Positions 30,651 through 57,399 of a stretch of DNA of 64,000 bases are shown here, in pieces. The position numbers were made by a program, and so were the translations under genes. Position 1 is the first letter of the stretch. Every line of letters begins with the position of its first letter. The notes under the pieces were generated by a model. That model saw only the letters and a list, made by a program, of their open reading frames with translations, was not told the DNA's origin and searched no databases. The DNA comes from Sphingopyxis sp. OPL5 (lineage in GTDB: Bacteria > Pseudomonadota > Alphaproteobacteria > Sphingomonadales > Sphingomonadaceae): assembly GCF_003797775.2 (NCBI RefSeq), contig NZ_CP060725.1:4086001-4150000 (forward strand), written 5' to 3'.

Positions 30651-30666
30651 GCATAGCATTCTAAGT
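30651..30666. promoter_or_regulatory. Operator site 1 (NNWTAG-N4-CTAA type)
   Basis: GCATAG-CATT-CTAAGT. It lies in the divergent gap between the HMG-CoA lyase-like gene (start 30605) and the CaiB gene (start 30748). It matches the 16-bp pattern found at seven other operon starts in this window. TATATC follows directly, a possible -10 for the CaiB operon. Confidence 0.55.
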
Positions 30667-30747
30667 ATATCATGGCCATAGGGATTGAGGATGTCGGGCC
30701 GCGCGCGGTCCCCTTCCTAGGCTAAAGAGACGCCCGAAGGGAATGAT

Positions 30748-31911
30748 ATGACGGAAGCGAGCAGCGGGGGAGCGCTGGAAGGGTTGAAGGTCGTCGAGAT
30801 GGGGCAGCTGATCGCCGGCCCCTTTTGCGGCCAGTTGCTCGGCGACATGGGCGCCGAGATCGTCAAGCTCGAGCCGCCGGTCGGCGGCGACCAGATGCGC
30901 AACTGGGGCCAGGGTGACAAGCCGAGCTGGTGGCGCGTCATCGCGCGCAACAAATATTCGGTCGCGGTCGACCTGCGCAGCGAAGAAGGCCAGGCCCTCG
31001 CCCGCGAGCTGATCGCCAAGGCCGACATATTGATCGAGAATTTCCGGCCCGGCACGCTCGAGAAATGGAACCTCGACCCGCAGGTGCTGCGCAAGACCAA
31101 CCCCGGGCTGATCGTCGTGCGCGTGTCGGGCTACGGCCAGACGGGCCCCTATTCGTCGCGCGCCGGCTTTGGCGGCATCGGCGAGGCGATGGGCGGGTGG
31201 CGCGGCATCGTCGGCTATCCCGACCTGCCCCCCGCGCGCATGGGGGTGTCGATCGGCGATACCCTCGCCGCCACTTACGGCTGCATGGGCGCGCTCGCCG
31301 CGCTGCACCACCGCAGCAAGACCGGTGAAGGCCAGATCGTCGATTCGGCGCTGTACGAAGCGGTGCTGCAGGTGATGGAATCGACGGTGTCGGATTATTC
31401 GGCGAGCGGCACCAAGCGCCGCCGCACCGGTTCGACGCTGCCCGGGATCGCGCCGTCGAACGTCTATCCGTGCAGCGATGGCGAATATTTGATCGGCGCC
31501 AATCAGGACGGCGTCTTCGCGCGGCTCGCCGCGGCGATGGGCCGCCCCGAACTCGCGGACGACGAACGCTATGCGACGCACCGCGCGCGCGGGGTGCGGC
31601 AGGAGGAGCTCGACGCGCTGATCGGCGAATGGACGGCCACGCTGACGATCGAGCAGCTCGAGGCGAAGATGGTCGAGGCGAGCGTTCCCGCCGGACGCGT
31701 ATTCGATGCCGAGGACATGCTGGCCGACCCGCATTTCGCCGCGCGCGACGCGCTGGTCACGGTGCCCGACGCCGAGCTCGGCGAAATCCGCATGCAGGGA
31801 GTCTTCCCCAAGCTGTCGGGCACGCCGGGCAGCGTCCGCCGGCCTGCCCCGCTGGTCGTCGGACAGGATACGGACGATGTGCTGAAGCGCTGGCTCGGAC
31901 GCGAGGGTTGA
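30748..31911 (+). CDS. CaiB/BaiF family (class III) CoA-transferase
   Basis: 387 residues, normal for the family. The N-terminus VVEMGQLIAGPFCGQLLGDMGAE and KLEPPVGGD are typical. The catalytic aspartate lies in SIGDTLAAT (about D171), and HHRSKTGEGQIVDSALYEA follows. Such enzymes move CoA between carboxylic acids through an aspartyl-CoA intermediate. The preceding bases AAGGGAATGAT give a usable ribosome site. A GST gene begins 4 bp after the stop. With the divergent HMG-CoA lyase-like gene, activation then cleavage of a branched hydroxy acid is plausible. Confidence 0.9.
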   Translation: MTEASSGGALEGLKVVEMGQLIAGPFCGQLLGDMGAEIVKLEPPVGGDQMRNWGQGDKPSWWRVIARNKYSVAVDLRSEEGQALARELIAKADILIENFRPGTLEKWNLDPQVLRKTNPGLIVVRVSGYGQTGPYSSRAGFGGIGEAMGGWRGIVGYPDLPPARMGVSIGDTLAATYGCMGALAALHHRSKTGEGQIVDSALYEAVLQVMESTVSDYSASGTKRRRTGSTLPGIAPSNVYPCSDGEYLIGANQDGVFARLAAAMGRPELADDERYATHRARGVRQEELDALIGEWTATLTIEQLEAKMVEASVPAGRVFDAEDMLADPHFAARDALVTVPDAELGEIRMQGVFPKLSGTPGSVRRPAPLVVGQDTDDVLKRWLGREG

Positions 31912-31915
31912 GACG

Positions 31916-32620
31916 ATGATCACCCTCTATGGCGGCGCCACCCCCAATGCGCGCAAGATCGCGATCGCACTGCTGGAGATGGGGCTGCCCTGGCGGCTCG
32001 AATATATCGATATCCTCGCGGGCGACCAGCTGACCCCCGAATTCCTTGCGCTCAACCCGAACAACAAGACGCCGGTGATCGTCGACGAGGACGGTCCCGG
32101 CGGCGAGCGCTTCGTGCTGTGGGAGACCGGCGCGATCCTGCTCTATCTCGCCGAAAAGACCGGCCGCTTCGTGCCGACCGATCCGGTGAAGCGCGCGACC
32201 TGCTGGCAGTGGCTGATGTTCCAGGTCTCCGGCGTCGGGCCGATGTTCGGGCAGGAAGTGCATTTCACCCATTACGCCAAGGATCGGCACGATTATGCCA
32301 TCGCGCGCTACAGCCGCGAGGTCGACCGGTTGATGATGGTGCTCGACAAAAGGCTGGGCGAAGCGACCTGGCTGGCCGGCGAGGATTATACGATCGCCGA
32401 CATGGCCACCCTGCCCTATTTGCGTCGCCAGCTGATCGACAAGGCGGGGCGTTTCCCCCATGTCGAGCGCTGGGGCGCGGCGATGCTCGAACGGCCCGCG
32501 GTCGCCGAGGGCATGACCGTCGGCGTCGCCCGCGCCGAGACGATCGAGGGCGGGCTGACCGGATTTACCGACGAGCATCGCGCGATCCTGTGGGGCGACC
32601 GGCAGCATCAGGCGCGGTAG
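31916..32620 (+). CDS. Glutathione S-transferase, YfcG/YghU-like
   Basis: 234 residues. The N-terminal thioredoxin fold starts ITLYGGATPNARKIAIALLE, with the cis-Pro motif NPNNKTPVI and the glutathione-binding WETGAILLYLAEKTGR. The helical domain contains EDYTIADMATLPYL. The TPN start is typical of Ure2p-like Nu-class GSTs, which often act as disulfide reductases or peroxidases. It is co-transcribed with the CaiB gene (4-bp gap). Its partner may be a glutathione conjugate made in the same pathway. Confidence 0.9.
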   Translation: MITLYGGATPNARKIAIALLEMGLPWRLEYIDILAGDQLTPEFLALNPNNKTPVIVDEDGPGGERFVLWETGAILLYLAEKTGRFVPTDPVKRATCWQWLMFQVSGVGPMFGQEVHFTHYAKDRHDYAIARYSREVDRLMMVLDKRLGEATWLAGEDYTIADMATLPYLRRQLIDKAGRFPHVERWGAAMLERPAVAEGMTVGVARAETIEGGLTGFTDEHRAILWGDRQHQAR

Positions 32621-32705
32621 CGCCGCCGGGGGATGGATCGCGATGCCGGACGGAGCGCGGAAGACGACCTGGTCGCTCGCGCTCTCGATCCGGTTGCCGC
32701 ACCGA

Positions 32706-55839: not shown

Positions 55840-57257
55840 CCCAGCATATCGGGCGACGCGATCGCGCCCGCTATCGCACTTGCCGCCGCGAGCGCCGGGC
55901 TCATCAGATGGGTGCGCCCGCCGCGCCCCTGGCGGTTCTCGAAATTGCGGTTCGAGGTCGCGGCACAGCGTTCGCCGGGAGCGAGGCGGTCGGGGTTCAT
56001 GCCGACGCACAGCGAACAGCCGGGTTCGCGCCATTCGAAGCCTGCGGCGCGGAACACGCGGTCGAGCCCCTCGGCCTCGGCCTGCCGCTTGACGAGCCCC
56101 GAGCCCGGCACGACCATCGCGCGGATATGCGGCGCGACGTGCCGGCCGCGAGCGATGGCCGCCGCAACGCGCAGATCCTCGATCCGGCTGTTGGTGCAAC
56201 TGCCGATGAAAATCCGGTCGAGCCGCTGGCCCGCGATCGGCCGGCCGGGCGTCAGGTCCATATAGGCGAGCGCCCGTTCAGCCGTCGCGCGCGCATCGAG
56301 GTCGGGCAGTTCGGACGGATCGGGCACAAGCTCGCCGATGCCGACGACCTGCGACGGATTGGTGCCCCAACTGACCATCGGGCGAACGGCGGCGGCGTCG
56401 ATGCGCAGTTCGCGATCGAAGGTCGCATCGGCATCGCTGGTGAGGCCCCGCCAGCGGGCGACCGCCCTGCCCCATGCGTCCCCGGTCGGCGCCGCCGGAC
56501 GCCCGGCAAGATAAGCAAAGCTCGTCTCGTCGGGGGCAACCAGGCCGGCACGCGCACCCATTTCGATGCAGAGGTTGCACAAGGTCATGCGCGCCTCCAT
56601 CGACAGCGCGCGGATGGCCGCGCCGGCATATTCGACGACATGGCCGGTGGCACCATCGACGCCGACGGTACGGAGCAGGTGCAGCGCCAGGTCCTTGGCC
56701 GAAACATCGGCCGGAAGCGCGCCATCGACCGTGATCCGCATGCTCCGCGACTTGCGTTGGCGGATCGTCTGGGTCGCGAGCACATGTTCGACCTCGCTGG
56801 TGCCGATGCCGAAGGCGAGCGCGCCGAAGGCGCCGTGGGTCGAGGTGTGACTGTCGCCGCAGACAATCGTCATCCCCGGTTGCGACCGCCCCTGTTCGGG
56901 TCCGACGACATGGACGATGCCGTTGCGCGGATCGCCCATTGCAAAACGCTCGACGCCCGCACGGTCGGCGTTGACCTCCAGCGCCAAGAGCTGCGCGCGC
57001 GCCGCTTCGTCGGCGACCCCCGATGCCCCGGCCGCCTGCCCTTCGGTCGGAACATTGTGATCGGAGAGGGCCAGCGCGCGTTCAGGCCTGCGCACGATGC
57101 GGCCCGAGGCCGCAAGCGCCGCGAAGGCCTGCGGCGAGGTCACCTCATGAAGCAGGTGCAGGTCGATGTAGAGGATCGATTCGCCATCGTCCTGCGCCAC
57201 GACATGCGCGTCCCATATCTTGTCATATAATGTGCGCGCTCGCGCCGGATTGGTCAT
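55836..57257 (-). CDS. leuC: 3-isopropylmalate dehydratase large subunit-like (LeuC)
   Basis: 473 residues, full LeuC length. The Fe-S cysteines are in FIGSCTNSRIEDLR and PGCSLCVGMN. LHLLHEVTSPQAF, ALSDHNVPT, CGDSHTSTHGAFGALAFG and GERCAATSNRNFENRQG are as in bona fide LeuC. The [4Fe-4S] aconitase-type enzyme dehydrates and rehydrates 2-isopropylmalate or close analogues such as citraconate/methylmalate. Its stop overlaps that of leuD tail to tail. Operator site 7 lies 44 bp upstream of its start, linking it to the catabolic regulon rather than to amino-acid control. Confidence 0.9.
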   Translation of the reverse strand: MTNPARARTLYDKIWDAHVVAQDDGESILYIDLHLLHEVTSPQAFAALAASGRIVRRPERALALSDHNVPTEGQAAGASGVADEAARAQLLALEVNADRAGVERFAMGDPRNGIVHVVGPEQGRSQPGMTIVCGDSHTSTHGAFGALAFGIGTSEVEHVLATQTIRQRKSRSMRITVDGALPADVSAKDLALHLLRTVGVDGATGHVVEYAGAAIRALSMEARMTLCNLCIEMGARAGLVAPDETSFAYLAGRPAAPTGDAWGRAVARWRGLTSDADATFDRELRIDAAAVRPMVSWGTNPSQVVGIGELVPDPSELPDLDARATAERALAYMDLTPGRPIAGQRLDRIFIGSCTNSRIEDLRVAAAIARGRHVAPHIRAMVVPGSGLVKRQAEAEGLDRVFRAAGFEWREPGCSLCVGMNPDRLAPGERCAATSNRNFENRQGRGGRTHLMSPALAAASAIAGAIASPDMLG

Positions 57258-57295
57258 GCCGCATCACCCCCGCCGGCACGACTTCGGGGCGCGCC

Positions 57296-57316
57296 ATAAT
57301 ACTTAGATATCTAACT
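57296..57316. promoter_or_regulatory. Operator site 7 with abutting -10-like hexamer
   Basis: ACTTAG-ATAT-CTAACT at 57301-57316, 44 bp upstream of leuC. On the minus strand the hexamer TATTAT (57296-57301) touches it and is a likely leuC -10. The arrangement repeats site 4, so binding would block the promoter. Confidence 0.65.
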
Positions 57317-57383
57317 TATATGGCATGTTCGCGGCTCGTATCAAGCGCTTTTCCGCCAATCTCGATTTTCACAATCATGCAAT

Positions 57384-57399
57384 ACTTAGTAGTTGAAGT
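57384..57399. promoter_or_regulatory. Operator site 8 (weaker)
   Basis: ACTTAG-TAGT-TGAAGT. The left half is perfect and the right half is degenerate, but outer bases extend the symmetry (AATACTT ... AAGTATT). It lies 205 bp upstream of the second TonB receptor gene. Confidence 0.5.

Follow-up and report, generated by a model that had tools for sequence, protein, structure and literature searches.

A 26.7-kb island of catabolic genes in Sphingopyxis sp. OPL5 carries eight 16-bp palindromes, which are very probably the operators of one regulon controlled by MarR2, a MarR-family protein encoded within the island. The island lies in the 64-kb stretch of DNA analyzed here (the window; positions 4,086,001 to 4,150,000 of contig NZ_CP060725.1), and the source genome is a single contig of 4,676,975 bases (4.68 Mb). 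An initial annotation of this DNA had proposed one regulon under a MarR-type regulator with promoter-overlapping operators, and this proposal is strongly supported by the conservation of the palindromes in relatives, their retention at operons unlinked from MarR2, and their co-occurrence with MarR2. The regulon is new and well supported; its operator and regulator are of an already known type (SlyA-box form, MarR family).

Distribution and conservation of the palindromes

All eight palindromes were found at the positions and with the sequences first reported (Table 1). Sites 1-7 match WTAG-N4-CTAA exactly, with TTAGN4CTAA at sites 2, 5, 6, and 7 and ATAGN4CTAA at sites 1, 3, and 4. Site 8 (ACTTAGTAGTTGAAGT) is degenerate in its inner right half, a weakness that the initial annotation had also described, and its outer arms (AATACTT...AAGTATT) are intact. 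Genes were called from Pfam and NCBIfam scans, with some start codons set by eye; with the likely starts, every one of the eight sites falls in intergenic DNA upstream of operons, as had been proposed. Site 1 overlaps the HMG-CoA-lyase-like gene solely at the mechanical open reading frame (ORF) start at 30659, the likely GTG start (by eye) being at 30605.

Within the window, WTAGN4CTAA gives 12 strand-matches compared to 0.12 expected from shuffling, including one further match at 467-478 (genome position 4086467) that falls outside the island. The genome-wide test used a pattern search (TAGN4CTAA) and not a weight matrix. It returned 20 distinct places, 7 of them within the island, compared to 0.075 predicted from the rest of the genome (Poisson 2e-12; approximately 8e-9 after scan correction for the best stretch). 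Equally frequent hits at random positions, the outcome named at the outset as refuting, were not what this search gave. Of the 13 other places, one is the window match at 467-478, and the rest were viewed by ORF layout rather than gene by gene; some seem to fall between genes, and one (3048554) is flanked by a sulfatase gene and a TonB-like gene. Additionally, near-matches to the operator were noted at 786342, 1084897, 1579111, 1795094, 3646424, and 4182370, several of them (by eye) between ORFs resembling acyl-CoA dehydrogenase, ligase, or receptor genes; these may be additional targets or belong to other MarR proteins.

Conservation was assessed in a panel of 80 Sphingopyxis genomes (MarR2 presence cut-off 1e-60; strict site pattern WNTTAGN4CTAANW) and in 61 loci, mostly from Sphingopyxis, recovered by a MarR2 search of named genomes. 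MarR2 is at least 60% identical in 53 of these loci and below 50% in the other 8, and a site in relatives' loci was defined as WTAGN4CTAW. Counts for gene pairs take in relatives whose two flanking genes were detected near each other, and conservation of the eight core bases and of the flanks was computed after dropping majority-gap columns. Across the six promoter regions of operators 1-6, core conservation is 0.99-1.00 compared to 0.68-0.92 for the flanks. Operator 1 is present in 30/30 CaiB loci (the best 30 of 66 matches; 29 relatives and the window), with core 1.00 and flank 0.84, and operator 2 is present at the same place in 30/30 DUF3237 loci (the best 30 of 58 matches, again 29 relatives and the window; 1.00 and 0.92). 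Operator 3 was found in all 16 relatives with both genes (1.00 and 0.88 over 17 rows). Operator 4, between MarR1 and ligase 2, is present in 35 of 38 relatives (missing in L026, L049, and L066; 0.99 and 0.72), operator 5, between MarR2 and the FMN reductase, in 38 of 41 (missing in L060, L070, and L073; 1.00 and 0.68), and operator 6, between leuD and MarR2, in 37 of 38 (missing in L063; 0.997 and 0.70). For operator 8, the core is at 1.00 and the flank at 0.69 over 8 rows, window included. Of 31 relatives, 21 have a counterpart of operator 7 in the 400 bp before leuC (0.79 and 0.56, in a loose alignment). The conservation at orthologous promoters expected of a multi-operon regulon was thus observed, more weakly for leuC.

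The sites also persist where operons are scattered. DUF3237 matches occur in 58 of the 80 panel genomes and CaiB matches in 61 (66 matches in total). By coordinate, the DUF3237/TonB and CaiB/HMGL operons lie approximately 0.47 (G305), 1.76 (G252), 1.06 (G122), and 0.21 Mb (G259) from MarR2, and both operators are present in all four genomes despite the distance. Because operators are kept where these operons are unlinked from MarR2, the sites follow the genes and not the island. Among the DUF3237 loci with the site, some have an adjacent TonB receptor only 27-32% identical to the island receptors.

Palindromes that are AT-rich within a GC-rich genome, and repeated, could also be repeated elements, terminators, or an effect of base composition. 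This explanation deserves almost no weight: the palindromes lie upstream of gene starts, have varied spacers and flanks, and are conserved position by position, while a reversed control pattern occurs in 80 of 80 panel genomes whether or not MarR2 is present. Chance or composition is ruled out by the genome scan and the conservation, and a mobile repeat is ruled out because spacers and flanks differ.

A weak ninth site (TCTTAGAGGCCGAAGA), in the region upstream of MarR2, is probably a degenerate operator, judging from its alignment with better TCATAGNNNYCTAAGR-like palindromes that 9 of 53 relatives carry upstream of MarR2. Seven of these nine have the palindrome within 60 bp, the other two being L043 and L048; it is degenerate in the others viewed. 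This alignment suggests autoregulation of MarR2 that is weak in most relatives. The ninth site also falls inside a longer inverted repeat (approximately 55124-55150, GATTCTT...AAGAATC) that could fold into a hairpin in the MarR2 leader.

MarR2 as the candidate regulator

Two MarR-type genes lie among the sites, and the initial annotation made no choice between them; MarR2 is favored over MarR1 since several relatives without MarR1 still carry sites. Orthologs of MarR2 were detected in 62 of the 80 panel genomes. The strict pattern occurs in 58 of these 62 and in 0 of the 18 without MarR2 (Fisher 2e-14, not corrected for relatedness). The four genomes with MarR2 and no strict match are G249, G250, G316, and G322; looser sites are present in two of them, G322 (L056 by coordinates) and G250 (L050). 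Matches were listed for 26 genomes, and in 24 of these at least one lies no more than 10 kb from MarR2 (42 of 75 matches). At the locus level, 48 of the 53 loci with MarR2 at 60% identity or more contain at least one site, and the recognition-helix motif MREPTTV of MarR2 is kept in 53 of 53. One genome (G228) carries an enolase (61%) and the kinase with no MarR2 match at 1e-25 and no site, on a contig of only 4.8 kb.

MarR1, alone or as a second protein on the same sites, is an improbable regulator, although it is a MarR-domain protein located in the island beside operator 4 and is found in 60 of 80 genomes, nearly the same set as MarR2. Sites are kept in fetched DNA in which MarR1 was not found, namely in L042, L050, L062, L064, and L070-L073 (cut-off 1e-10) and in L165 (1e-6). 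Genome-wide at 1e-40, MarR1 was not found in G250 and G296, both of which have MarR2 and sites; G250 corresponds by coordinates to L050 of S. bauzanensis. For L042, MarR1 may lie elsewhere in the genome, outside the fetched locus. In L165, from another genus (MarR2 65%), the cluster is rearranged and five sites stand before its transcription units (ligase 1, ABH2/APH, MarR2/FMN reductase, VOC/SnoaL, and DUF3237/TonB). MarR1 is also 12-88 kb from MarR2 in G249 and G262-G264. The loci that keep sites without it disfavor MarR1 as the sole regulator, and it may serve another role, since the MarR1 relative encoded in this genome (39% identity) forms the C-terminal part of a fusion with a flavin reductase. 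At L014:7994-8989, a flavin reductase is fused to a C-terminal MarR domain 39% identical to MarR1, and MarR1 may descend from such a fused sensory domain.

Alternatively, several SlyA-box-type MarR paralogs could share the sites, so that two or more regulators would control the island. Clusters of paralogs in other species (a MarR at 52-58%, with TonB, DUF3237, and MFS paralogs) have the same kind of box, and in this genome a 40% MarR paralog is encoded within approximately 4 kb of a similar site. On the other side, the strict site is absent from all 18 genomes without MarR2 and the recognition helices of the paralogs differ, leaving shared control a possible but unlikely arrangement.

Several observations weigh against control of all sites by MarR2. 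Since genomes that lose MarR2 lose much of the gene set as well, co-occurrence alone cannot separate the regulator from the pathway, and the genomes compared are related. Two of the 58 genomes (G251 and G252) have their sole strict match far from MarR2, and five of the 53 MarR2 loci have no site (L039, L061, L065, L067, and L068) though MREPTTV is kept. Five of the eight loci below 50% identity lack a site (L074-L077, at 37-49%, and L081), and the other three, L078-L080, carry their own. In 10 of 31 relatives, no site lies in the 400 bp before leuC; seven of these ten have one farther upstream (L026, L030, L032, L033, L035, L037, and L048). The flanks at operators 1 and 2 are also well conserved (0.84 and 0.92), and the contrast between core and flank there is consequently small. 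Another MarR protein could bind too, given that paralogs with other recognition helices are found near the same box (L172, L175, and L176), and MarR2 may activate rather than repress.

Proposed mechanism and related systems

Under control by MarR2, a putative homodimer would sit on each TTAG-N4-CTAA site, where the operator overlaps or abuts the -10 region, and would block RNA polymerase. A pathway compound, perhaps the acid itself or a coenzyme A (CoA) thioester produced by either CoA ligase, would free the DNA, and uptake (two TonB receptors and an MFS carrier) and enzymes would then be switched on together; the weak site upstream of MarR2 could provide autoregulation. Repression by occlusion fits the promoter geometry. 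By eye, putative promoters were read on the ligase-2 (TTGCAA-N17-TACTAT), ligase-1 (TTGCTG-N17-TATTCT), and leuC (TTGATA-N17-ATATAA) strands, and in all three the -10 is covered or immediately followed by the operator. In the alignment, the columns of the -35-like boxes upstream of ligase 2 and leuD are well conserved. The initial annotation had placed a TATTAT hexamer beside sites 4 and 7; TATTAT is not the majority sequence in relatives (the leuC alignment being loose).

MarR2 passes the MarR domain model PF01047 (56.1 bits, cut-off 24.6). The predicted repressor is likened to FerC together with CouR, another MarR-type catabolic repressor. In Sphingobium SYK-6, the MarR regulator FerC controls a CoA-dependent aromatic pathway, and a CoA thioester of that pathway inhibits its binding to DNA (PMC5487221); FerC may serve as a model for the inducer here. 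It differs in that the regulon described here spans at least seven promoter regions. The SlyA box of Salmonella and E. coli SlyA, a MarR-family protein, was given as TTAGCAAGCTAA and later as TTAN6TAA, and has the same TTAG-N4-CTAA form (PMC5797941). However, the sites here have longer arms (ACTTAG...CTAAGT) and an AT-rich spacer, and SlyA antagonizes H-NS whereas the island is a local catabolic regulon. Against the NCBIfam SlyA model NF002926, MarR2 scores 43 bits (4.1e-11), under the cut-off of 120.

MarR2 likewise falls below the cut-off of the Saro_0803 model NF053777 (3.6e-10, 39.7 bits compared to 200), and has a distant match to structure 2fbk (1.4e-7), presumably HucR. The HucR operator also contains ACTTAG. 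HucR of Deinococcus radiodurans, alike in belonging to the MarR family, is a urate sensor with a single intergenic site (PMC5487221). Saro_0803 of the sphingomonad Novosphingobium aromaticivorans is also a MarR-type regulator, and an inverted repeat covers the predicted -10 box; it differs in its repeat (GCAATA...TATTGC), its nov1 promoter, and its association with resveratrol (PMC10046596). PheR is discussed as an IclR-type regulator with a different motif (PMC13273656). Among the papers listed by searches of the open-licence PubMed Central (PMC) literature on sphingomonad MarR regulation and the island gene set, none described the present regulon.

The sister clusters L172, L175, and L176 come from other Sphingopyxis, and two of them (L172 and L175) also contain an FMN reductase and a sulfatase. 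As a palindrome of the same kind accompanies their paralogous MarR genes, the switch and its operator form seem to have been duplicated together. TTAGN4CTAA palindromes also adjoin the genes of distant MarR homologs in Spongiactinospora and Alkalicoccus (L079 and L080), suggesting that the box is old.

Gene content and possible substrate

The features of the island are collected in Table 1. The MarR2 start is most likely at approximately 55082 and not at 55205.

Table 1. Palindromic sites and genes of the island, in window coordinates.
Feature	Coordinates	Strand	Sequence or match	Position or remark
Operator 1	30651..30666		GCATAGCATTCTAAGT	between HMG-CoA-lyase-like gene (-) and CaiB gene (+)
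Operator 2	37192..37207		CATTAGTATACTAAGG	between DUF3237-GST operon (-) and TonB receptor (+)
Operator 3	45460..45475		AGATAGAATACTAAGC	between CoA ligase 1 (-) and MetE-like gene (+)
Operator 4	53367..53382		GGATAGTATACTAAGT	between six-gene operon (-) and MarR1 (+)
Operator 5	54524..54539		GGTTAGAATACTAACC	upstream of FMN reductase (-)
Operator 6	55223..55238		ACTTAGACTACTAAGT	between MarR2 (-) and leuD-like gene (+)
Operator 7	57301..57316		ACTTAGATATCTAACT	upstream of leuC-like gene (-)
Operator 8	57384..57399		ACTTAGTAGTTGAAGT	upstream of TonB receptor 2 (+); outer arms kept
Candidate weak ninth operator	55131..55146		TCTTAGAGGCCGAAGA	~50 bp upstream of MarR2; one mismatch to WNTTAGN4CTAANW
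HMG-CoA-lyase-like protein	29703..30605	-	NF004283 4.2e-86
CaiB-type CoA-transferase and GST	30748..32620	+	PF02515 1.5e-125; GST match
DUF3237 protein and GST	35919..37186	-	PF11578 2.4e-30; GST_N
TonB receptor, MFS transporter, SnoaL, CMD, GST, VOC genes	37277..43545	+
CoA ligase 1	43864..45426	-	AMP-binding 2.9e-78	ATG start by eye
MetE-C-domain-like protein	45512..46564	+	PF01717 1e-39 (longer ORF)	TTG start by eye
Alpha/beta hydrolase	46653..47345	-	PF00561 1.1e-16
D-2-hydroxyacid dehydrogenase	47357..48265	-	PF02826 1.1e-48
Second enolase	48262..49557	-	Enolase_C 5.8e-85	altered residues near active site
APH-type phosphotransferase (kinase)	49559..50530	-	PF01636 7.6e-21
Possible alpha/beta hydrolase	50532..51659	-	weak Pfam: 3.5e-6 just below, 6.4e-5 just above cut-off	no NCBIfam match
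CoA ligase 2	51687..53339	-	AMP-binding 6.8e-77	first gene of six-gene operon
MarR1	53474..53932	+	Pfam MarR_2 8.8e-10
NADPH-dependent FMN reductase	53929..54504	-	PF03358 4.5e-43
MarR2	54576..55082	-	PF01047 3.5e-15 (longer mechanical ORF)	168 aa; TTG start, (M)AKTNQSF
leuD-like small subunit	55252..55839	+	PF00694 7.2e-32
leuC-like large subunit	55836..57257	-	PF00330 3.3e-170
TonB receptor 2	57530..59869 (mechanical ORF)	+	PF00593 1.1e-40	likely ATG start 57605, by eye

The island enolase is the second in the genome, the best enolase match elsewhere being at 128734. It passes the NCBIfam eno cut-off, yet compared to the top solved bacterial enolase it has QDFMI for QEFMI and SARSGE for SHRSGE, changes that lie near the active site. 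The APH-type kinase and the 2-hydroxyacid dehydrogenase are present in 44 of 44 loci with the enolase (47357-50530 in the window), including L070 and L072 of Phenylobacterium, and this joint occurrence hints at a dedicated phospho-enol step. The sequence from hydroxypyruvate through glycerate and 2-phosphoglycerate to phosphoenolpyruvate was considered as the exact lower route, but the enolase changes weigh against it and make plain 2-phosphoglycerate doubtful as the substrate of this enzyme. The second enolase, with CoA ligases, an APH-type kinase, and a 2-hydroxyacid dehydrogenase as neighbors, hints at an undescribed route. In its complete form, such a route would have a CoA-ligated plant-type compound cut and a small hydroxyacid fragment reduced by the 2-hydroxyacid dehydrogenase, phosphorylated by the APH-type kinase, and dehydrated by the altered, dedicated enolase, with a single MarR switch in control that was copied into sister regulons while keeping its form of operator; this full scheme is speculative, and we consider it rather unlikely to hold in every part.

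Sphingopyxis is a genus known for pollutant degradation. As a first guess, the substrate of the island could reasonably be a plant phenolic, since lignin-dimer catabolism involves the DUF3237 protein PinX as well as its relatives PhcF and PhcG (PMC12607616). Even ahead of experiments, the operator shows which of the scattered genes form one set: two CoA ligases, a CaiB transferase, a lyase, the leuCD-like subunits, GSTs, DUF3237, the enolase-kinase-dehydrogenase set, and two outer-membrane receptors. It thereby predicts the regulator and its targets in Sphingopyxis.

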